A DNA stretch of 26,264 nt, from the IMG/VR virus record IMGVR_UViG_3300022707_000333, positions 1 to 26,264 of that record; one strand, 5' to 3'. Under the pieces are notes generated by a model. It was not told the DNA's origin, did not search any database, and saw only the letters and a program-made list of their open reading frames with translations. The position numbers and the translations under genes were made by a program. This DNA is from a virus. Below, piece after piece: positions 9,529-21,300 of this stretch (the stretch's first letter is position 1; every line of letters starts with the position of its first letter).

Positions 9529-10154
9529 TGCCTCTCGATGTTAGAATTGTCGGAGAAAAGGCAGGTTTTGCGGATGTGCAGGATAAGGCGCAACTGACTT
9601 CAATTGTGCCTTATCCACCAATCAATGTGGATAATAAAATAGTACCTTTTTTTGGCAGGTTAACCATGAACGGTGATGGCATAACAAGTGAATTAACGGT
9701 TGACGGGAGCATGACTCCCATTGATGCCTTTATAGGTCCACCTGTAGATGGTGACTTGTACATAACTACTGCTAATGTGTTAATAGCGGATTCAGGCGCT
9801 ATATCGTTAAATCGCTTCGGTGCTGCGACAGCATTGACGAATGGTATTAATTTTTTTGTTGAAACACAGAATAAAAGATTAAATATTAGTGTGGGATTGA
9901 AAACTAATTTTGATTTCATACGCATTGGAACATTAACTGTCGGCACAGGTGGAAAGAATGATGCATATCAACTTTCTAATACCGATCCAGCAAATGATGA
10001 CGGTTATAATCCTATTTTAGACTTCACCAGAGCTTCGCCAATTGGCATAAGACTCAGAAGAGATACACAAGATAAATTAGGAATTTGCATAAATGATGAT
10101 TTAACCGGCATTGCTACGTTTAATATAGGTATCACAGGATTTATCAGGATCTAA
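9528..10154 (+). CDS. 208-residue beta-rich putative virion protein
   Basis: The start overlaps the previous stop as TAATG (9526-9530). The sequence is almost all short strands: IVPYPPINVDNKIVPFFGRL, LTVDGSMTPIDAFIGPP, GDLYITTANVLIADSGAI, RIGTLTVGTGG. It seems to pair with the preceding gene as two beta-rich proteins made together. The opening YPPINV and the central IDAFIGPPVDGDLYI resemble capsid-surface or head-fibre proteins, but I cannot name a family. No catalytic motif. Confidence 0.65.
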   Translation: MPLDVRIVGEKAGFADVQDKAQLTSIVPYPPINVDNKIVPFFGRLTMNGDGITSELTVDGSMTPIDAFIGPPVDGDLYITTANVLIADSGAISLNRFGAATALTNGINFFVETQNKRLNISVGLKTNFDFIRIGTLTVGTGGKNDAYQLSNTDPANDDGYNPILDFTRASPIGIRLRRDTQDKLGICINDDLTGIATFNIGITGFIRI

Positions 10155-10155
10155 T

Positions 10156-10533
10156 ATGAGCAGAGTTGACCCAACAGAAGTAAGGCAAATAATCACAACA
10201 ACTTTAACTGATCCAGTTATTCGAATATGGATTGATGGCGCTAACACTATCGTTACCGCTAATGTGGCGTGTATCGGCGGTGATGACGCTTTGTTAACTC
10301 AGGTTGAATTATATCTATCCGCTCACTTTATCGGAATGCTTGACCCGGCTATTAGGGGTTTCGTAACAAAAGAGAAACTGGACATATTCGAAACTACTTA
10401 TTCAAACCCTGTCACATTAAGCAATATAATCGATAACACGCCATACGGAACAACCGCCAATATGCTATCTGGCGGTTGCTTGGCTAATACATCGGACAGG
10501 GTTGCAACTCTATTTAGTGTTGGAGGTTGTTAG
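10156..10533 (+). CDS. Probable head-tail adaptor protein (gp6-like)
   Basis: This 125-residue protein has an N-terminal half of helices (VRQIITTTLTDPVIRIWIDGAN, LLTQVELYLSAHFIGML) followed by a Cys/Gly end. Helical proteins of this size with an L-T-Q-V-E-L-Y-L-x-A-H-F pattern at this position usually form the ring beneath the portal. AGGATCT precedes ATG 10156. Its expected partner, the head closure protein, is not next to it but on the other side of the minus-strand island, at 14328. The function is inferred from pattern and order. Confidence 0.65.
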   Translation: MSRVDPTEVRQIITTTLTDPVIRIWIDGANTIVTANVACIGGDDALLTQVELYLSAHFIGMLDPAIRGFVTKEKLDIFETTYSNPVTLSNIIDNTPYGTTANMLSGGCLANTSDRVATLFSVGGC

Positions 10534-10537
10534 TTAC

Positions 10538-10669
10538 TCAATCAACCAAGCCAAGGAAGGCGATTCCGGCGCCAAGCAATGCCCAGAACGAGTCATATTC
10601 AAATCCTAAATAAGTTAGTGACAGACAAAGTATCGTGCACATTATCATTTGTATTGATTTATCGGTCAT
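10538..10669 (-). CDS. 43-residue membrane microprotein
   Basis: On the reverse strand an ATG at 10669 follows GGGAGGAG with 7 bases of spacing, and 43 codons lead to TGA at 10538-10540. The sequence has two hydrophobic stretches (IMCTILCLSLTYLGF and FWALLGAGIAFLGLV) around a short acidic turn, fitting a two-pass membrane hairpin. It overlaps the preceding 124-residue membrane gene by 11 bases, so the two are probably coupled. It ends 4 bases from the convergent adaptor gene. Role unknown; holin partner or superinfection factor are guesses. Confidence 0.7.
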   Translation of the reverse strand: MTDKSIQMIMCTILCLSLTYLGFEYDSFWALLGAGIAFLGLVD

Positions 10670-11033
10670 TTTTTTGCTCCTCCCTGATCTCATCATCAAT
10701 TAAATTAATATTAGTGTTGGCCAGTAATTGCAACATCCACCAAATTGCGCCGGACCATAAAAACCCCAAAGCAGCCAAGGACAGCGCAAAGAAAGTATCA
10801 TAAGTAAATGAATACCAAACCCTAACCTTGGACCTCGGCTTCCTGCCTTCTTTGAATTTTTCTTTGAGGTCATCTACCGATGTAGCTATAATCATTAGTA
10901 CTGTAATCAAGATAAAGACCCAAAACACTGCCCAGAATATATTTGCAGCGTAAACGTTCTCATTAAATACGCCGAAATAAAGTAGTGCTGCCATTACAGC
11001 TTCTACCACTGTTGATATTATTGTTTTTTTCAT
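10659..11033 (-). CDS. 124-residue multi-pass membrane protein
   Basis: The protein has at least three hydrophobic segments: near residues 9-23, 31-53 (IFWAVFWVFILITVLMIIA) and 81-105 (FFALSLAALGFLWSGAIWW). A strongly basic loop (KEKFKEGRKPRSKVR) separates the second and third, predicting that loop to be cytoplasmic. AAGGAA precedes ATG 11033 and the start overlaps the upstream stop as ATGA. Together with the 43-residue microprotein it makes a two-gene membrane pair. Candidate roles are holin/antiholin or membrane-level superinfection exclusion; none is shown by a motif. Confidence 0.7.
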   Translation of the reverse strand: MKKTIISTVVEAVMAALLYFGVFNENVYAANIFWAVFWVFILITVLMIIATSVDDLKEKFKEGRKPRSKVRVWYSFTYDTFFALSLAALGFLWSGAIWWMLQLLANTNINLIDDEIREEQKNDR

Positions 11034-12370
11034 GATTGTTCCTTATTTTTTAATTGCCAAGCCTTAAGGTCTAGGATAGAAATCTTGCTATCCTTCCATT
11101 CATCGCCGGTTAGTTTTGGCATCTTGATGCCGGTTAGTGGATAATTTGAAAAAAATCCGTTGGTATGTGAATCGTCAAAATCAACAATAGGCTCACCCCC
11201 GAACGCACACCAACCCTTTCTGTGATTACACCACGCAAGGAACTTAACCTCATCATTAAACAAACCAACATCCGGCAAATCCTTCAGCCAGTGACGGGGT
11301 TCGTGTTTTGATACGATGTCATATTCACTACATTCCGAGCCTGCGCCAGTTGTCATATCGCAAATGCATATTGCCTTTTCGTTGCCAACAACCATTTGAT
11401 CTGATTCTTCATGAGTAATTAAAACATTAACAACCTCGCTATTTCGCAAAACTAGTGAATCACCCACTTTTACACCATTTAAATCAATCATTTTTGTTTC
11501 CTTTTCTTTCGCTTTGTCCATCACGGCATCCGGCAGCTCATCGCGTGAGCTGGCCGTAATTACATCGCCTTCTTTTAGCGACTGCAATGCTTGCTCTGCT
11601 TGGTATTGTTTTAGCATTGCTGCATGGTTAGGTTTCCATGTTTCGTTACACGATAACTCGGGGTCTAACTCCCAACCCGCACCGCTAGCGTGGGCCGGTT
11701 GGGACAACCAGCTAGTGTCAACAACCACATCATCACCCACTGGCTGCTTGCCGGTGTTTGGGCGGTCGGCGAATGATTTAAGAAAAAATACACCTTCTGG
11801 AATATATTCATTGAGATTTAATACTTGTTCGCCTCCCCCATCGATTACGAAAGTAATAGGTTCCTTGCTATTGTATATTTCATCACCAACAAATAGCGGT
11901 GTGAAATTCTTAACGAATGAGATTGGTATTAGGTTATCTGTGTTCATTTCAGTTTCCTTTTGATCATCCGGGGCGCGTCCCATACTGACGGCGTGCGATT
12001 TTACTAATTTTATTATTGGCTTTTCATCAAGGCCCAATTCATAGCGCTTGTTTTGCCATTGCTGGTAGATGTAACAGTCCGGGTTGCCGCTTTTAAATCT
12101 GTAGTTAACATAGCCAACCATATCACGGAATATTGATGGATACTCATCATCTCCACCCCATTCTGATTCATTCACCGCCAGCCATTCCAAATCTGTTTGC
12201 GGGGTGAATTTGAATAAATCAACGAATTCACTTATATGCAGTGGCGTGGCGGCATAATCATCCCTGCCGTAATGTATTAAATTATTATCGTCGATAAAGT
12301 TTACTTCCCATTTTGACTTTGATTGGTTGCCGACCCAAACTTGCCCAACCATCGGTTTAACGTTTTTCAT
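11030..12370 (-). CDS. 446-residue three-module protein of unknown function
   Basis: The frame divides into three parts of 141, 152 and 153 residues. Parts two and three begin at Met142 and Met294, each preceded by its own AGGA exactly 7 bases before the ATG (ATGs at 11947 and 11491). Each part starts with a small beta-rich, SH3-like section (VGQVWVGNQSKSKWEV; FVGDEIYNSKEPITF; VKVGDSLVLRNSEVV). Part one then has an EWLAVNE...YQQWQNKRYELGL stretch common in small phage proteins. No enzyme motif is seen. It is the largest island gene and overlaps the membrane gene downstream by ATGA. A fused or multi-start gene is the best reading. Confidence 0.75.
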   Translation of the reverse strand: MKNVKPMVGQVWVGNQSKSKWEVNFIDDNNLIHYGRDDYAATPLHISEFVDLFKFTPQTDLEWLAVNESEWGGDDEYPSIFRDMVGYVNYRFKSGNPDCYIYQQWQNKRYELGLDEKPIIKLVKSHAVSMGRAPDDQKETEMNTDNLIPISFVKNFTPLFVGDEIYNSKEPITFVIDGGGEQVLNLNEYIPEGVFFLKSFADRPNTGKQPVGDDVVVDTSWLSQPAHASGAGWELDPELSCNETWKPNHAAMLKQYQAEQALQSLKEGDVITASSRDELPDAVMDKAKEKETKMIDLNGVKVGDSLVLRNSEVVNVLITHEESDQMVVGNEKAICICDMTTGAGSECSEYDIVSKHEPRHWLKDLPDVGLFNDEVKFLAWCNHRKGWCAFGGEPIVDFDDSHTNGFFSNYPLTGIKMPKLTGDEWKDSKISILDLKAWQLKNKEQS

Positions 12371-12679
12371 TTAAAACCCCTCTATTAAATATTTAATCTG
12401 CTCACTAGTTAAGTGGTCTTGTACGTTTCTCTTATGCTCAGGAAGATTTCGTATCGTTCTAAATACGCAGTCTTGACCTAAAGTAATTTCTTGCTTTGTG
12501 TCCTTCTCAAGAATGTAAGTCCATGACCGCCAACCTATGCTATTGGTCATAAAATAAATCTCGACATCAAAGTTATTGCATGTGGCGTGACTTAGGTTTA
12601 CTGGGTACCAAAAATGCCTGTCAGCTGGAGCGCATCCTAATAACACTAACGCCATCCCTATGATTAACACTTTTTTCAT
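12371..12679 (-). CDS. 102-residue lipoprotein
   Basis: A bacterial lipoprotein signal is clear: MKK, a hydrophobic core VLIIGMALVLL, and the lipobox LLGC with Cys16. Position +2 is Ala, which in Gram-negative hosts favours the outer membrane. The mature part is about 87 residues with two further Cys (CNNF, QDCVF) that could form a disulfide, and ends in a charged helix. Candidate roles are an outer-membrane spanin-like protein or a superinfection-exclusion lipoprotein; no coiled coil or Pro-rich region argues for spanin. Its start overlaps the 21-residue gene stop as ATGA. Confidence 0.75.
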   Translation of the reverse strand: MKKVLIIGMALVLLGCAPADRHFWYPVNLSHATCNNFDVEIYFMTNSIGWRSWTYILEKDTKQEITLGQDCVFRTIRNLPEHKRNVQDHLTSEQIKYLIEGF

Positions 12680-12741
12680 TTCTTCTTGCTCCCAAATATT
12701 TTGTCGAATTCTTCTTGAAGTTCACGTGGTAGATCAGTCAT
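12676..12741 (-). CDS. 21-residue micro-ORF coupled to the lipoprotein gene
   Basis: ATG 12741 follows AAAAAGGTGG with good spacing, overlaps the stop of the 50-residue gene by 8 bases, and its own TGA overlaps the lipoprotein ATG. The peptide is charged and helical (RELQEEFDKIFGSKKK). Every junction suggests a real coupled gene, though a pure coupling device for the lipoprotein is equally possible. Confidence 0.5.
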   Translation of the reverse strand: MTDLPRELQEEFDKIFGSKKK

Positions 12742-12886
12742 TATTTGCCACCTTTTTATTCACTTCGAACGCGATGTAAATATTACAAATGATCGCGCTA
12801 GCTGCAATGGCGATTTCAGGGCCGTCAGTGGCGCGAATAATAGCAGCGACTATGAGCCACGAAACTGCGCTTATGGTGTTAAACAT
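12734..12886 (-). CDS. 50-residue small membrane protein
   Basis: The frame from ATG 12886, with AGGGG upstream, encodes a hydrophobic N-terminal helix (ISAVSWLIVAAIIRA) and a second one (EIAIAASAIICNIYIAF) joined by a short TDGP turn, then a charged tail (EVNKKVANND). It looks like a two-pass hairpin. It overlaps its upstream neighbour by 8 bases and its downstream one by 8. Function unknown. Confidence 0.6.
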   Translation of the reverse strand: MFNTISAVSWLIVAAIIRATDGPEIAIAASAIICNIYIAFEVNKKVANND

Positions 12887-13067
12887 GTTTGTCCCCTAAT
12901 TTAATCGCCATAGTAAAGCTATTAAACCCCATGCTATCAGCCGTCATGCCGTAGGTTGGCTGTATGCCATGGCTATGAATTCCAATTTGACTGCCTAGCT
13001 CAAGGTCTGGTTTATCATCCAGCATTGTTATTGATAGGTCGGATATTGACTCGAATGTTATTTGCAT
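12879..13067 (-). CDS. 62-residue unknown protein
   Basis: ATG 13067 has GGAGA with 6 bases of spacing. The protein is soluble, acidic at the N-terminus (MQITFESISDLSITMLDDKPD) and has a His-containing middle (GIHSHGIQPTYGM). It is mostly predicted beta. The reading frame overlaps the following membrane gene by 8 bases. No family recognised; the coding call rests on the ribosome site and the tight packing of the operon. Confidence 0.6.
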   Translation of the reverse strand: MQITFESISDLSITMLDDKPDLELGSQIGIHSHGIQPTYGMTADSMGFNSFTMAIKLGDKHV

Positions 13068-13070
13068 GGT

Positions 13071-13235
13071 TTATCTCCAATTCCACATGTCTGATGTTGT
13101 CTCTATGAATACATTAAGCGTTTGCTTCCGAGTCATGTTGAAGTCTCGCCATAAAACACAGTGAAGCGGGAAGGTCAGCCACATAAGAGGGATTAACCAC
13201 CACGATATTAATATTCTTAAAATCCAAGATTTCAT
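13071..13235 (-). CDS. 54-residue single-pass membrane protein
   Basis: ATG 13235 overlaps the YopX-family gene stop as ATGA, and 54 codons end at TAA 13071-13073, three bases before the next ATG. Residues 4-28 form a Trp/Leu/Ile-rich membrane helix (WILRILISWWLIPLMWL) followed by a basic and polar tail ending WNWR. The ribosome site is weak (AATAGGC), so translation probably depends on coupling. Function unknown. Confidence 0.6.
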   Translation of the reverse strand: MKSWILRILISWWLIPLMWLTFPLHCVLWRDFNMTRKQTLNVFIETTSDMWNWR

Positions 13236-13642
13236 TGCCTATTGTCCAACAATTCTGGATGCTGATGGATATTTCCGATTACTTGCGCGTCAAATGATTC
13301 TGTAGCAGATAGTATCGAGCAATCGCCAGAAAGGAATTGATCCCCTAAAAATCTAACCTCTTTGTTGTGCCTTCCGTTATGAAACATGCAGTTCTTTTCT
13401 TGGCTAACAATATCACCTTCGTAAATATCCACGCCGTTTTTGTCGGTTAGGCCGGTGAATTGGCCAATTGTTTCCTCTTTAACAATGTTATATTCCATGC
13501 CTACGCCGCCGCAAGGGTCGTTCATTGTTGGTGCGTGCTCAAATGGCTGACTTATCACATAATTAAACTCGCAATTCATTGATAGAAATCCAGTAACCAC
13601 GTGACCGGATTTGTTTATTCCTCTGAATTTAGTTTGACGCAT
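13232..13642 (-). CDS. YopX-family protein
   Basis: The 136-residue protein starts at ATG 13642 (MRQTKFRG), which has GGAG and 7 bases of spacing; the longer frame from 13660 begins inside the upstream gene without a site. The YopX hallmark is plain: RQTKFRGINKSG at the start and IGQFTGLTDKNGVDIYEGDIV in the middle, ending in IGNIHQHPELL. YopX-domain proteins are common in phages and have no agreed function. Here it is the fourth residue of a chain of overlapping genes in the island, 14 bases into the upstream HTH-like gene. Confidence 0.85.
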   Translation of the reverse strand: MRQTKFRGINKSGHVVTGFLSMNCEFNYVISQPFEHAPTMNDPCGGVGMEYNIVKEETIGQFTGLTDKNGVDIYEGDIVSQEKNCMFHNGRHNKEVRFLGDQFLSGDCSILSATESFDAQVIGNIHQHPELLDNRQ

Positions 13643-13802
13643 TTTTATTCTCCAATTCATTAACCTGACTAACTAGCGTTTCGTGTTTTGGATGGCTTTC
13701 ATGCTCGCGCGCCCGATAGGTCCTTAGTGCAATATCTTGAAGCTTGCAGAACTCATTAAGGTTGTAGCCCTTATTTCTGATTTTTCGTGTTAGTTTGTTC
13801 AT
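13629..13802 (-). CDS. 57-residue putative helix-turn-helix protein
   Basis: The likely start is ATG 13802 with AGGTGG 5 bases before it; a GTG at 13811 would begin within that site. The protein is basic and helical, and the segment YNLNEFCKLQDIALRTYRARE matches the spacing of an HTH whose recognition helix carries TYRAR. It would then bind DNA, perhaps the divergent promoter region at 14213-14327. This is inference from composition. Its start shares one base with the stop of the first island gene (TAATG). Confidence 0.55.
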   Translation of the reverse strand: MNKLTRKIRNKGYNLNEFCKLQDIALRTYRAREHESHPKHETLVSQVNELENKNASN

Positions 13803-14212
13803 TACAGCCACCTGTGTAGATTTCTTCTTGCTAATATTCGTTCGATGAAATTGCCGTTCAAATTAATCAGCATCCGCTTTGACGAGCAAAGAAGATCGTA
13901 AATACCTTCAAACTCATCAGGCATAACCTGTCTAATGATGTAATAATTTTGATTGTCATAGTGGCACGAGGTTTCATCAAAAAACATTCCGCTCAATGAG
14001 TTTATGAAGTGAATACAGCCACCTTCTTGCCCGCCCCATGCCATCCACACTTTATCGGTCCTTTCGCCGTTAACCGCTGCTACGGCGTTAAAATGACAAG
14101 ATGAATTACTAAGGGTAAAGCCCGATTTCTTTATTTTGTCATGCGGCACTTTTTTATAGTTTGTTACAACAAAATCAAAGCACTTAGATTTGAACTTATT
14201 TTTTATACTCAT
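13802..14212 (-). CDS. 136-residue protein with a possible Cys-His-Asp site
   Basis: First gene of the reverse-strand operon, ATG 14212 preceded by GAGGAT. The middle of the protein reads SSCHFNAVAAVNGE (Cys39), then WGGQEGGCIHFIN (His68) and SGMFFDETS (Asp79). This order and spacing, small residues around the Cys, a His in a strand, and an Asp shortly after in FxDxT, resembles papain/transglutaminase-like folds. I do not recognise a named family and activity is not shown. The C-terminus is basic (RMLINLNGNFIERILARRNLH). Confidence 0.6.
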   Translation of the reverse strand: MSIKNKFKSKCFDFVVTNYKKVPHDKIKKSGFTLSNSSCHFNAVAAVNGERTDKVWMAWGGQEGGCIHFINSLSGMFFDETSCHYDNQNYYIIRQVMPDEFEGIYDLLCSSKRMLINLNGNFIERILARRNLHRWL

Positions 14213-14243
14213 ACATCCTCGTTATACCTGCATTGTTTGCACT

Positions 14244-14272
14244 ATTATATTGCATTAATTACATTATTCCAA
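14244..14272 (-). promoter_or_regulatory. Promoter of the reverse-strand island
   Basis: Read on the minus strand, TTGGAA (14272-14267) lies 17 bases before TATAAT (14249-14244). Transcription would start near 14237, about 25 bases upstream of ATG 14212. Confidence 0.75.
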
Positions 14273-14279
14273 GTCTATT

Positions 14280-14307
14280 TTGTAAAAAGGTTGATTAGTG
14301 ATAAAAT
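14280..14307 (+). promoter_or_regulatory. Divergent promoter for the head closure operon
   Basis: TTGTAA (14280-14285) and TAAAAT (14302-14307) are 16 bases apart. The -35 elements of this and the island promoter are only 7 bases apart, back to back, so a protein bound between them could affect both. Confidence 0.6.
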
Positions 14308-14327: not shown

Positions 14328-14696
14328 ATGGCATACGATTTCGACGCGTCCAGAAAATTAGCATTGAGAGTTATCACTAAGTTTGGTGCGCCCGGCTCAG
14401 TAGTAAAAAAAGGAGTTACCGGCGGCGGATTTGACAACAACGGCGATCCGATACCCGATAGCCCAGATGAAATAATTCTTGGCACTATAACGCCGCTGGT
14501 TCAATTTAAGTCTCATGAGGTGGATGGGGAAGCGATACAGAGCGGTGACTCGTATGTATTTTTCCATAGTGAGGTAGAGCCAGAAATTGATATGCAAACA
14601 ACAATTAATTTTAAAACATTTAGAATCGTTGACACCATCATACTTTCATCGGTTGATGATGTTAATATATTTAGGCGCTTGCAATTAAGGAAATAA
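14328..14696 (+). CDS. Probable head closure (head-tail connector) protein
   Basis: The 122-residue protein starts at ATG 14328 with AGAGGA at spacing 7. The pattern GAPGSVVKKGVTGGGFDNNGDP, then IILGTITPLVQF, DGEAIQSGDSYVFFHSEV and a final SSVDDVNIFRRLQLRK is typical of the small beta-barrel proteins that plug the head after packaging and accept the tail (lambda FII / SPP1 gp16 role). The following genes are tail completion and tail terminator, in the right order. Function is from pattern and context. Confidence 0.75.
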   Translation: MAYDFDASRKLALRVITKFGAPGSVVKKGVTGGGFDNNGDPIPDSPDEIILGTITPLVQFKSHEVDGEAIQSGDSYVFFHSEVEPEIDMQTTINFKTFRIVDTIILSSVDDVNIFRRLQLRK

Positions 14697-15594: not shown

Positions 15595-15603
15595 TGCTAT
15601 AAT
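15595..15603 (+). promoter_or_regulatory. Extended -10 promoter before the homing endonuclease
   Basis: TGCTATAAT is a perfect extended -10 element, with no convincing -35. Transcription should begin near 15610, the first base of a stable RNA stem. Confidence 0.7.
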
Positions 15604-15606
15604 CAA

Positions 15607-15660
15607 TTTGCGCTGAGGGATTAATTACCCCGCTCTGATTCGTTACCAGACAGCGCGAAA
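15607..15660 (+). promoter_or_regulatory. Leader RNA A, predicted three-way junction at +1
   Basis: Outer stem GCGCTG (15610-15615) with CAGCGC (15651-15656), extended by TTT/AAA past a bulged G. Inside lie two hairpins: GGG (15617-15619) with CCC (15628-15630), 8-base loop, and TCTG (15634-15637) with CAGA (15647-15650), 9-base loop ATTCGTTAC. The inner stems are short, so the fold is a prediction. It sits exactly where the transcript should begin and about 40 bases before the endonuclease start. Confidence 0.5.
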
Positions 15661-15696: not shown

Positions 15697-16310
15697 ATGT
15701 TTATAGAGATCCCCGCAAGCAAAATGTCCATAGCACTTAGAAGGCTATCTTTCGGCGTTGGCGTAAATGACGCTGATTATATCGTGTGCAATAAAACCGA
15801 CGGTAAGAGGATGACTTGCCCATTCTACAAAAGATGGAATCATATGCTGGAAAGGTGCTATTCAGAAAAATTCCTCGAAAGAAACCCATCATATAAAGGA
15901 TGCACAACATGTGAGGATGGTACCTGTTTTCAAATTTCAAGAAGTGGATGATAAATCAGGACTGGGAAGGGAAACAACTAGATAAAGATATTAAATTTAC
16001 TGGCAATAAAGTGTATTCGCCGGAAACATGTATATTCGTTCCGCAACAAATCAATTCCCTATTGACAGATAGGAGAGCGGAAAGAGGATCTGAGTCACAG
16101 GGCGTACATTTCAATATAAGGGATAATAAATTTCAAGCTAATTGTAGCGTCAATGGAAGGAAAAAACATTTAGGTTATTTTGATAAAGAAGAAGATGCTG
16201 CCGTGGCATATAAAGAATTTAAATCTAAGCACGTTCACGGTGTTGCGATGGAGCAAGCCGATCCGTTACGTACCTATCTAATTAGGATATCTAGAGAATA
16301 TTTGGTGTAA
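15697..16310 (+). pseudogene. HNH/AP2 homing endonuclease broken by a frameshift
   Basis: Free-standing homing endonucleases of this kind cut an endonuclease-free copy of the locus and spread by repair. The first frame (15697-15951) holds YKRWNHMLERCYSEKFLERN and KGCTTCE, the HNH-side motif; the second (to 16310) holds WMINQDWEGKQLDKDI, YSPETCIFVPQQIN and an AP2 DNA-binding domain (GVHFNIRDNKFQA...HLGYFDKEEDAAVAYKEF). In the second frame the sequence upstream of 15948 reads YLFSNFKKWM back to about 15918, so one base appears lost near 15916-15918 where a GAx-TGG pair is expected. GAGGTG precedes ATG 15697. Sequencing error remains possible. Confidence 0.85.
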
Positions 16311-16842: not shown

Positions 16843-17190
16843 ATGGCAGTTATTACTCCTACAGATATGACCGGATCAGGCTCAAGAGCGGTTACCGTAA
16901 CCACTTTGGGCGCGTCTGATACATTCGTTTATAACCCAGACAAAAAACCAGTGCTTTACCTGAATAATGTTTCAGGTGGCGCCCTAACTCCATTAATCGA
17001 CGGTGATGGCGGCACAACTACGCCATGCCCAGGCATTGGTGATGTTGACGTTTCGGCAGGTCTAACTCTCGATTCAATTGGTATTGGCGCCACGGCGGCT
17101 ATTCCACTTAATAGCATCGAAGCTTTTTTAAAGGGCGTGATCACCATCACTGGCGGCGACGCCATTGAAGCAACACTGCTTGAATTCTAA
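16843..17190 (+). CDS. 115-residue putative tail structural protein
   Basis: Starting 2 bases after the tube gene, the protein is rich in Gly, Thr and Val with strand-rich pattern (SRAVTVTTLGASDTFVYNPDKK, VLYLNNVSGG, GVITITGGDAIEATLLEF) and no membrane segment. It resembles a small beta-sandwich decoration domain that could coat the tube or be a second tube subunit. An intrinsic terminator follows, so it is co-transcribed with the tube gene. The exact family is not recognised. Confidence 0.65.
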   Translation: MAVITPTDMTGSGSRAVTVTTLGASDTFVYNPDKKPVLYLNNVSGGALTPLIDGDGGTTTPCPGIGDVDVSAGLTLDSIGIGATAAIPLNSIEAFLKGVITITGGDAIEATLLEF

Positions 17191-17206
17191 ATCAGTTAAG
17201 TGATGT

Positions 17207-17236
17207 AAAAGCCCGTCTAGCTGATGGGCTTTTTTA
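17207..17236 (+). terminator. Intrinsic terminator after the tail tube genes
   Basis: AAAAGCCCGTC (17207-17217) pairs with GATGGGCTTTT (17223-17233) with one G-U pair, loop TAGCT, followed by more T residues. A strong, classic terminator. Confidence 0.88.
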
Positions 17237-17250
17237 TGCTCGTTATTTAA

Positions 17251-18289: not shown

Positions 18290-18315
18290 AAAAAGGGGCC
18301 TAATGGCTCCTTTTT
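18290..18315 (+). terminator. Intrinsic terminator after the chaperone genes
   Basis: AAAAAGGGGCC (18290-18300) pairs with GGCTCCTTTTT (18305-18315) with one G-U pair around the loop TAAT. A perfect U-tract terminator. Confidence 0.88.
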
Positions 18316-18356
18316 ATTGCCCTATTGCTAGAATATAAATCAACATTTATTTAGGT

Positions 18357-18390: not shown

Positions 18391-21300
18391 ATGTCTGATA
18401 TAGCAATCCTTGGTTTTAAAGTTGACACGAAAGGCCTAAAAAAAGGCGAGCAGGCGCTTGATAATTTTGCCAAGAAGGGCGAACAAACAGAAAAGAGGAT
18501 CAATAACAGCTTTAAACGAATCTCAGCACGTATCTCTGGCATCAAGGATGTAATAGGAATTGTCGGACTTGAGTTTGCCCAACTATCCAACAAAACAGAC
18601 ATAGCAAGAAAGTTAGTCGTAAAAGATATGCAGCAAATGCGCAATAGCGTAACGGATTTAAACAGGGAAGTTAAAAAGGTTCCGGTCGGATTTGGCAGAA
18701 TATCAAGATCAGCAAGAACATCATCAGCAAGCGCAGTCACCAGCATCACCATATTGAAAAAAGAAATAATATCAGTAAACAGAGTGGTTGGGTTGCTCGC
18801 TACTGGATTTCTTTTGATTGGCGGAGCCAGGTTGGGGACTGAGATAATTAGTCTGTCTGATACGTGGAAAGGATTGAATAGCCAAATAAGACAGGTTACT
18901 GATTCAGAAGAAGATCTGATAAAAACCCGCAAAATATTATTCGATTTAACACAGGATACAAGATCTCAACTATCAGGTACGGTTAATTTATTCGCTGAAT
19001 TAACCAGAGGAACATCAGAGCTAGACATTTCAAGCGATCGATTGGTTGGTGTGACTCGGACATTAAATAATTTGTTTGTCGCCGGTGGCAAGCCGATGTC
19101 TGAAACCATCGGCGCTATACGCCAATTAAACCAAGGTTTTGCTTCTGGCGTTTTGCGTGGTGATGAATTTAACTCTGTTGCTGAAGGTGCGCCTAAGGTC
19201 TTAGTCGCGTTAACAAGAAGCTTGGGAATAACAAGGGGTGAACTAAGAGAGTTCGCGGCTACAGGTGGAATAACAGCAGAAATAATGATCACTGCTTTAG
19301 AATCGTTTAGTCGTGAAGCTCAAAGCCTGGCAGACCAAACAGAAAAAACTTTTGCTCAAAGCTTGCAAATATCTACCAATAATATAACTAAATTTGTTGG
19401 CGAAGCTGAATTGCTAAATGAAATTTTAGGCTCAGTCGGTGCCGGCATGGAAGAACTAACAGGTAACCTAGATGCGACAAGTGATGCCGCACAAACGATG
19501 GTTGCGGTAATAGGTGTAGGGCTTACCCCTGTTATGTTTGGATATATCAGATCTCTTGTTGGCACAATTGCGGCGCAATTAACGGCCGGAACCACGGCGA
19601 TTAAAACTGCTAACGCATTTAGCGTTGTAACAACATCAGCGGCAACAGCAACGGTCGCGACAAATGCACTCGCCATAGCTACAAAATTCTTACTTGGGCC
19701 ATGGGGACTGCTATTAATTGCCATTGGTGCCGCTGTCGGTGTTTATGCAGCATCAAAGGCGGCTAGCGAAGACATAACAAGGCAATTCGGAATAGAAGAG
19801 GAAGCCATAAGGAAGTTAGCAAAATCATATGAGGATGCCAGCGTTGGAAGGTTAGGTAGTGACTACATAAAGTCCCAAAGAAAAGCTATTGAGATTGACA
19901 AAGAACGCAATAGAATACAAGAAAACATTATTTCAATACAAAATCGAATTACAGCCGCTAGGGCATCTGGCGCTCAATTTAGGGATATCAGTCAATCTAT
20001 AAATAGTTTAAAGGATCAGAAAAAAGCATTAGCAGCTGTCAATCTTAAAGGTGCTGAAAATGCTAAAGTCCTTAAAATTATTGGAGATAAATTCGAAAAT
20101 CTTTTACCGAAAGGCAGGGAGTGGGTAGAGATATCCGACAATATAGCGAAAAAGACAAAAGATCAAATGAAGGCTCAATTGAGAGTTGCCGAGGCGTTTG
20201 GCCTTACTATTTTTAACCTTGAAATGCAGAGACAGGAGCTTTTACTTAGCGCTAACGCTTTTGAGATATACGAAGCAAAAATACAAGCAATAGCTGATGG
20301 CGCAACGCCAGCAATGGTCAAGGCCATAACTGATGCTATTAAGGTTAACCAAGATTTAAGGGCAGAGATAGACAATCAGGAAGGGCTAAACGAACTATCA
20401 GATCAAGTTGATAACTTCGGTGGCGCCTGGTCTCGCACGGGTTCAGCAATCATTGACGCTTTCGGAGGAATGTCTGAAGCGTTAAGTGATTATATGGGGC
20501 GAGTAGAAGAAATTGCAGAGCTCGAGGCTAAAGTTGCTGATGCCCGGGTTATTTTCGGCGAAAATAACGCCGATGTTATCCGATTGCAGCAAGAGCTCGA
20601 CAGTCAAAAAGTATCAGCTGAATTGAGCGGATTAAAAGCAATATCAAAAGCATCAGGATCGCTTTTCAAAGAAAAAACAGCAGCATCAAAAGCATTTGCG
20701 GCTTTAAATAAAATAATAGCAATCGCTGAAATTGCCCTGTCATTCCAAAAAATAACAGCAGGCACAGCCGAGGCAGGCGTTCACGTTGCTAACGAAACAA
20801 CAAAGCAAGGCGCTAACTCGCTAACGGCTATCACATCAGCCTTTGCTGCCCCGTTCCCGATTAACTTTATAGCCGGCGCTGCAATGATTGCAATAATGGC
20901 CAGCTTGCTCGGTGGTTCTTCTGGCGGAGGTGGCGGGGGGTTTGATGCATCACAGGCGGCTCAAGAGGCGCAGGGCACCGGCACCGTATTTGGTAGTAAT
21001 GAACAGTCACAATCAATAGTAAATGCTCAGGAACGGTTTGAGGATATCGCGATCGATCAGCTTTCTGAGTTACGAAAAATACGTAACTCAATGGGCGCTT
21101 TGGCTGATGGCATTGCTAAGTTGGCCGGATCGATAATAGGCGGAGGACTTGGAGAGTTTGGTGGTAATTTAGGCACCACAACATCAGTTACCGGCGGATT
21201 TTTAGCTAATCTTGGTGATCCGTTCGGCGGAACAGTTAGCGCGGTATTAGGCTCTTTATTCGGAAAAACTACTAAAAAGATTGTTGATGAGGGCATTAGC

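Follow-up and report, generated by a model that had tools for sequence, protein, structure and literature searches.

Aca proteins are small, single-domain helix-turn-helix (HTH) proteins with mean lengths of 60–65 amino acids (PMC9410906). They repress acr operons by way of sites in the promoter (PMC9410906, PMC9410881, PMC7556299), and uncontrolled acr transcription is described in a review as lethal to the phage (PMC7556299). Here we report a comparable arrangement in IMG/VR virus record IMGVR_UViG_3300022707_000333 (positions 1–26,264, the whole of which we call the window), a 26-kb viral contig with the late operon of a siphophage that is interrupted by an island of eleven small genes on the opposite strand (i1–i11, 10538–14212). 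In our judgment this island probably belongs to a family of modular accessory cassettes that lie antisense at gene or transcription-unit boundaries of late operons in marine siphophages, and that would be silenced by a product of their own, the 57-residue HTH protein i10. Like phage morons, these cassettes are accessory genes with their own transcription between virion genes, and relatives retain empty sites. Searches of the open-access literature turned up no account of this family.

The late operon encodes TerS, TerL, portal, head morphogenesis and capsid proteins, adaptor and the head closure protein Hc1, and continues with neck, tail terminator, major tail protein and a tape measure protein that was assigned from size and position. 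A first-pass annotation, made from the letters of the window, had proposed that eleven small reverse-strand genes form a moron-type insertion between an adaptor and a head closure gene that adjoin in related phages. The tiling of open reading frames (ORFs) on the minus strand confirmed the gene count, with neighbors that overlap briefly or leave small gaps, and the GC skew changes sign across this stretch. Eight of the eleven frames (i1, i3, i4, i5, i7, i9, i10 and i11) have homologues in other viral contigs and are therefore coding; i2, i6 and i8 have no homologue among the fetched loci. The identity of Hc1 is supported by a family match, while the adaptor is assigned from its position and from the Ad1–Hc1 order in Vibrio phage 1.122, its own PHROG match being to a family of unknown function.

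Seven close relatives were retrieved via the capsid protein (retrieved loci carry L numbers). In L004 and L007 the island is absent and the genes for adaptor and Hc1 abut with a gap of 3–10 bp; the annotated order in Vibrio phage 1.122 is likewise Ad1–Hc1 with no island between. Non-identical antisense islands occupy the same junction in L002, L005, L006, L015 and L061, and have in common with the window island i10 (L002, L005, L006), i3 and i7 (L002, L005) and i4 (L005). The L003 contig ends inside an island at this junction, and in L032/L063 relatives of i9, i7 and i3 are located before an adaptor homologue. Because empty sites and different, partly overlapping islands occur in relatives, the comparison indicates that the island is an inserted, modular cassette, and the earlier proposal of a moron-type insertion is borne out. 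The relatives do not all carry the same genes at this place, and no island gene resembles a virion part. The cassette boundaries are exact gene ends without visible target-site duplication. As expected of a moron, the island is missing at this junction in L004, L007 and Vibrio phage 1.122 and has a promoter of its own that is conserved across cassettes; no terminator-like site was found on either strand near its 3' end (10538). Unlike morons, these cassettes are long (up to 3.8 kb), run antisense, share a regulator family and carry an outward promoter for the operon that they interrupt.

Antisense cassettes were also found at the junctions head morphogenesis/p760 (L003, L004, L007), g115/g171 (L004, L007) and g137/tape measure (L002, L004, L007, L015). 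The i11–i10 pair recurs in L004 at the head-morphogenesis/p760 junction, and i10, as a gene for 53–60 amino acids, is present in most of these cassettes, a recurrence that the first-pass annotation had missed together with the putative operators. Subtype searches and a hidden Markov model (HMM) yielded 44 non-identical i10 copies, some of which are near duplicates of one another, from uncultured viral contigs and one Colwellia metagenome-assembled genome (MAG). With gene calls from a simple purpose-made caller, 40 of the 44 copies are antisense to the flanking genes (in 34 this holds for both flanks; in the other six, one flank is lost at a contig end or was not called), and the i10 strand carries 2–46% of the coding bases around these antisense copies. 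According to a PHROG tally, the divergent side is flanked by portal (10), Hc1 (9), scaffold (6) and p760 (3), and the convergent side by head morphogenesis or minor head (11), TerL (9, phrog_2) and adaptor-like proteins (6). Three of the four colinear copies (L060, L062, L066) lie in regions that were read by eye, with no search, as early from RecT-, exonuclease- and CCA-adding-enzyme-like genes. In L060 an i10–YopX–i3-like module sits just before terminase, colinear and after RecT-/exonuclease-like genes, a position that suggests early expression. In the Colwellia contig L069 a solo 64-residue i10 (1501–1695) lies between a gene the size of TerS and small genes of structural type and runs opposite to them, a cassette reduced to its regulator.

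The heads of these cassettes share a recurring sigma70-type template, TTGnnn-n3-TGnnA-n4-TGnnn-(TAnnnT)-n2/3-TGnnA-n4-TGnnA, in which half-sites TGnnA with a 9-bp spacing flank the -10 box on either side. Scored on the TG pairs only, 23 of 44 heads contain the template with at least three half-sites (0.9 expected from shuffles) and 14 contain all four (0.0 expected). The head of the window island scores four of four, with two half-sites on either side of the -10 box; at least three were reached by 31 of 5000 shuffles of this head. The first-pass annotation had assigned a sigma70-like promoter to the island. This promoter does not emerge from a consensus scan by itself (16 found versus 14.9 expected, not above chance), and it is strongly supported by the comparison across cassettes.

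The confident AlphaFold2 (AF2) model of i10 (predicted local distance difference test, pLDDT, 92.6) consists of four helices (residues 3–10, 15–21, 26–32 and 40–48), of which the third is the predicted recognition helix and contains residue 31. Copies of i10 with Arg31 are paired with half-sites TG(A/C/T)CA, and copies with other residues mostly with TGCAA. C-type sites make up a mean share of 1.00 in seven Arg31 promoters and of 0.02 in 21 others (permutation p 2e-5); after dereplication at 85%, which leaves 5 versus 11 promoters, the matching of residue and half-site gives p 2.4e-4. In a tree that leaves column 31 out, residue 31 and half-site type each change four times, with 0 disagreements in 30 rows. 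The i10 proteins of the window and of L060 are 92% identical and differ at this position (A31 versus R31), as do their half-sites (TGCAA versus TGnCA). Two cassettes with different HTH types and different sites can occur on a single contig (L042/L056, L015). This matching predicts cognate autorepression by i10.

The same observations bear on the view that the islands are ordinary morons, unrelated accessory genes with own promoters among which the HTH gene is mere cargo with targets in the host or elsewhere in the phage. This view would account for the cargo, which mostly differs from cassette to cassette, and for the antisense islands in the same phages and in Pseudoalteromonas phage H103 that contain no i10. 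It does not explain why i10 sits at or near the cassette head in dozens of contigs, or why i10 subtype and half-sites agree within a cassette, also where one contig holds two, and we regard it as unlikely.

Downstream of an insertion, transcription of the interrupted operon could be restored by a second element. The motif TGnTAnAAT is found on the structural strand in 25 of 37 heads versus 1.6 expected, no more than 160 bp ahead of the following virion gene. The empty sites of L004 and L007 do not contain it; since they offer no room for a promoter, the outward promoter at the adaptor/Hc1 junction was either brought in by the cassette or formed later, after the insertion. A terminator scan by itself gave no signal above chance.

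Based on these features, we propose the following working model. On infection, host RNA polymerase would use the sigma70-type promoter of the island for early expression of the cargo, and translation of the second gene would supply i10 as a minimal HTH protein. This protein would bind pairs of half-sites located between the -35 and -10 boxes and immediately behind the latter, and thereby turn its own cassette off, so that antisense transcription is kept from running head-on into the late operon. The outward extended -10 promoter in the cassette head would then restart transcription of the head closure and tail genes. An antisense operon for which no 3' terminator was found should disturb late transcription unless it is switched off; we suggest early expression and autorepression because a regulator encoded at the cassette head, with sites that span its own promoter, answers this problem, as Aca does.

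A role of i10 as an activator, or as a Cro/CI-like lysis–lysogeny switch of a temperate phage, appears improbable. The HTH fold would suit this role, weak fold matches include EnrR and a lambda-repressor-like protein, and sites that flank the -10 box could influence the outward promoter; half-sites between the -35 and -10 boxes and directly behind the latter are nevertheless the geometry of a repressor, and one genome can hold different i10 types. The only bacterial record of i10 is the Colwellia MAG (isolate ALOHA_DT_125), which contains three copies with phage-like neighbors on two contigs. A search of 297 genomes around this MAG returned no other convincing i10 and one weak partial match. 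Because i10 is almost absent from these genomes we see no sign of prophages, and a prophage origin was dropped. A mobile parasite spread by homing endonucleases, with a regulator that merely limits harm, is highly improbable: HNH-type endonucleases do occur inside cassettes of L007, L003, L004, L015 and L045 and elsewhere in the window (15697–16310), but most cassettes, the window island included, contain none, and the exact gene-end boundaries show no visible target-site duplication.

Several observations weigh against the proposed autorepression by i10 and its general role in these cassettes. The covariation of residue 31 and operator comprises just one to four phylogenetically independent contrasts; kinship may contribute to it, and with kinship taken into account it lacks formal significance. 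Dyad symmetry of the half-sites is not above that of shuffles, and a first reading of the operators as palindromes was dropped after this test; in contrast to Aca sites, they are repeated half-sites 9 bp apart and not demonstrated inverted repeats. Divergent heads of the WW and other classes do not fit the template; by eye, the WW class (L003, L007, L036, L041) contains ACGGTA-type repeats instead. The copies in L062/L066 have no recognizable promoter, and the fourth colinear copy (L064) lies within structural genes. Antisense islands without i10 exist at two junctions in L004 and in phage H103. Finally, nearly all of 132 cargo proteins searched against Pfam, PHROGs and NCBIfam are without a match.

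With regard to Aca (Aca1 of phage JBD30, Aca2, Aca10), i10 is also a small HTH protein among short genes of unknown function, and its putative sites likewise fall within the core promoter of the operon that encodes it. A Foldseek search with the i10 model gave no match with E below 1. After re-alignment of the top chains Aca1 ranks first as the best structural match, with a Z-score of 5.6 and 2.7 Å over 53 residues, a modest value that, as the tool itself notes, may reflect just a common arrangement; given the Foldseek E values, the likeness to Aca1 consists in this score, and folds beyond those listed may match as well. No sequence similarity to Aca chains was found among PDB structures, a dedicated Aca HMM set not having been searched. 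Unlike aca1, which is downstream of acr, i10 is the first or second gene of its cassette, and the cassettes run opposite to the late operon. They also show no known acr gene: no Acr family was found among the 132 cargo proteins in the general family scans, which did not include a dedicated Acr library. The arrangement appears to work like Aca regulation; we do not class i10 as an Aca protein and treat the likeness as analogy rather than demonstrated kinship. The new part is the regulator with its putative operators, and the cassettes may be described as morons with an Aca-like autoregulator. In L005 one frame (9984–10376, minus strand) encodes i10 extended by a Cys-rich, Lar-like domain, a fusion that recalls fused Acr–Aca proteins.

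This extension resembles the restriction-alleviation protein Lar (PF14354, E 0.0047, below cut-off), and a Dam methylase follows i10 in L003/L047. Together with YopX (3), this one Dam methylase and the weak Lar match are the exceptions among the 132 cargo proteins. Neither of the two sister-cassette genes is present in the window island, and they amount to no more than hints of anti-restriction. It may be that the cargo counters host defense. The host-interaction or phage-exclusion function in the first-pass annotation finds partial support: the evidence points to early, self-repressing expression and includes these hints, and nothing pointed to superinfection exclusion. More tentatively, i10 might represent a new and widespread family of cassette-specific autorepressors in which residue 31 determines the base at position 4 of the half-site, and with which marine phages would run several mutually orthogonal early anti-defense islands antisense within the late operon; the ~130 cargo proteins, mostly without a family, would then be candidate inhibitors of bacterial immunity.

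If the proposed reading is correct, i10 would provide a sequence handle on many phage genes without a family, in the way that aca1 led to anti-CRISPRs through guilt by association, and this handle would reach into the barely cultured phages of marine gammaproteobacteria. It could serve as a marker for unknown early, possibly anti-defense, genes. The protein itself would be a compact test case of how 57 residues switch DNA specificity (one residue, one base), and the cassettes would show how a phage tolerates antisense cargo in essential late genes, namely by self-silencing and an outward promoter.

Table 1. Features of the island and its flanks in the window.
Feature	Position	Strand	Description
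Probable head-tail adaptor, left flank	10156..10533	+	position and gene order
i1	10538..10699	-	53-aa membrane-type microprotein; last gene
i2	10659..11033	-	124-aa membrane protein; basis ORF
i3	11030..12370	-	446-aa modular protein; C-terminal block like NinX-type early phage proteins
i4	12371..12679	-	102-aa lipobox protein (LLGC)
i5	12676..12741	-	21-aa microprotein
i6	12734..12886	-	50-aa membrane-type microprotein; basis ORF and tiling only
i7	12879..13067	-	62 aa; most conserved cargo at the adaptor/Hc1 site
i8	13071..13235	-	54-aa membrane-type microprotein; basis ORF and tiling only
i9	13232..13660	-	YopX family; Pfam PF09643, 9.3e-16
i10	13632..13802	-	57-aa HTH protein, putative autorepressor, signature gene of the cassette family
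i11	13802..14212	-	136 aa, first cassette gene; Cys-His-Asp-rich; phrog_6596 (function unknown), PHROG 4.5e-10
Putative i10 operators	14228..14263	-	TGTAA 14263-14259, TGCAA 14254-14250, TGCAA 14241-14237, TGCAG 14232-14228
Cassette promoter	14244..14272	-	TTGGAA, 17 bp, TATAAT
Outward promoter toward Hc1	14280..14307	+	TTGTAA, 16 bp, extended TG-a-TAAAAT
Head closure Hc1, right flank	14328..14696 (alternative start 14298)	+	phrog_161, 2.1e-11

The coordinates of these features are collected in Table 1. The ATG of i10 overlaps the 3' end of i11; read from a GTG at 13811 the protein would have 60 residues, and its stop codon is at 13629–13631. It reaches no curated Pfam or NCBIfam cut-off, and no match was found in 50,697 isolate phages (four query types, E up to 1) or in plasmids (one query type, E up to 1). 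The preceding gene product i11 is 76% identical to i11 of L004, which heads a cassette at another junction; its AF2 model, built from two sequences, has a pLDDT of 36.7. Neither i11 nor i3 has relatives among PDB structures.

The YopX protein named in the first-pass annotation is confirmed. With 58.4 bits i9 is above the gathering score of PF09643 (22.4); it has solved homologues (2ox7, 2qyz) and is 78% identical to proteins in L032/L063 and 58% in L061. The lipobox of i4 is plausible, and the protein recurs with 72% identity in the L005 island at the same junction. As the annotation had guessed, i3 is modular: its N-terminal, middle and C-terminal blocks match separate pieces in L061, L032/L063, L015, L062, L066 and L059, and a tblastn match covers a NinX-annotated region of Vibrio phage 1.210. 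Among the smaller proteins, i7 is 57–88% identical to homologues in L002, L005, L015, L032/L063 and L061, and i5 shares 63% identity over 19 residues with an ORF of the L052/L027 cassette. Pieces homologous to i1 occur in L066/L062 (3e-4, 1e-3), and its stop lies 4 bp beyond the convergent adaptor stop. A weak PHROG match of i2 to endolysin (9e-4) spans the membrane segment only and was not trusted.

Phage H103 (L010), an isolate, carries four groups of small antisense genes between structural genes of its late operon, in which, unlike the cassettes described here, no i10 homologue was seen. Two i10-less islands of L004 contain a zinc-ribbon gene with the motif CxCGCGxKFYGTKRR (16984–17118 and 19781–19921, minus strand), and their promoters share a GTTAC...GTTAC motif. 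This gene was considered as a second signature gene and rejected, its relatives not being consistently within such islands. In the window, hairpin-plus-T sequences at ~17200–17240 and ~18290–18320 mark the unit ends g115/g171 and g137/tape measure, the junctions that host antisense cassettes in L002, L004, L007 and L015. The HNH endonuclease of the window lies between tail terminator and major tail protein and is split into two frames (84 and 120 aa), both of which match phrog_953; relatives have single copies of ~210 aa, some of them inside i10 cassettes (L007, L004, L015, L045). Shortly before this gene, a stretch of 58 bp (15599–15656) matches the end of the Vibrio phage 1.054.O record, where a terminase small subunit is annotated, with 87.9% identity; no other near DNA match to the window was found in isolate phages.

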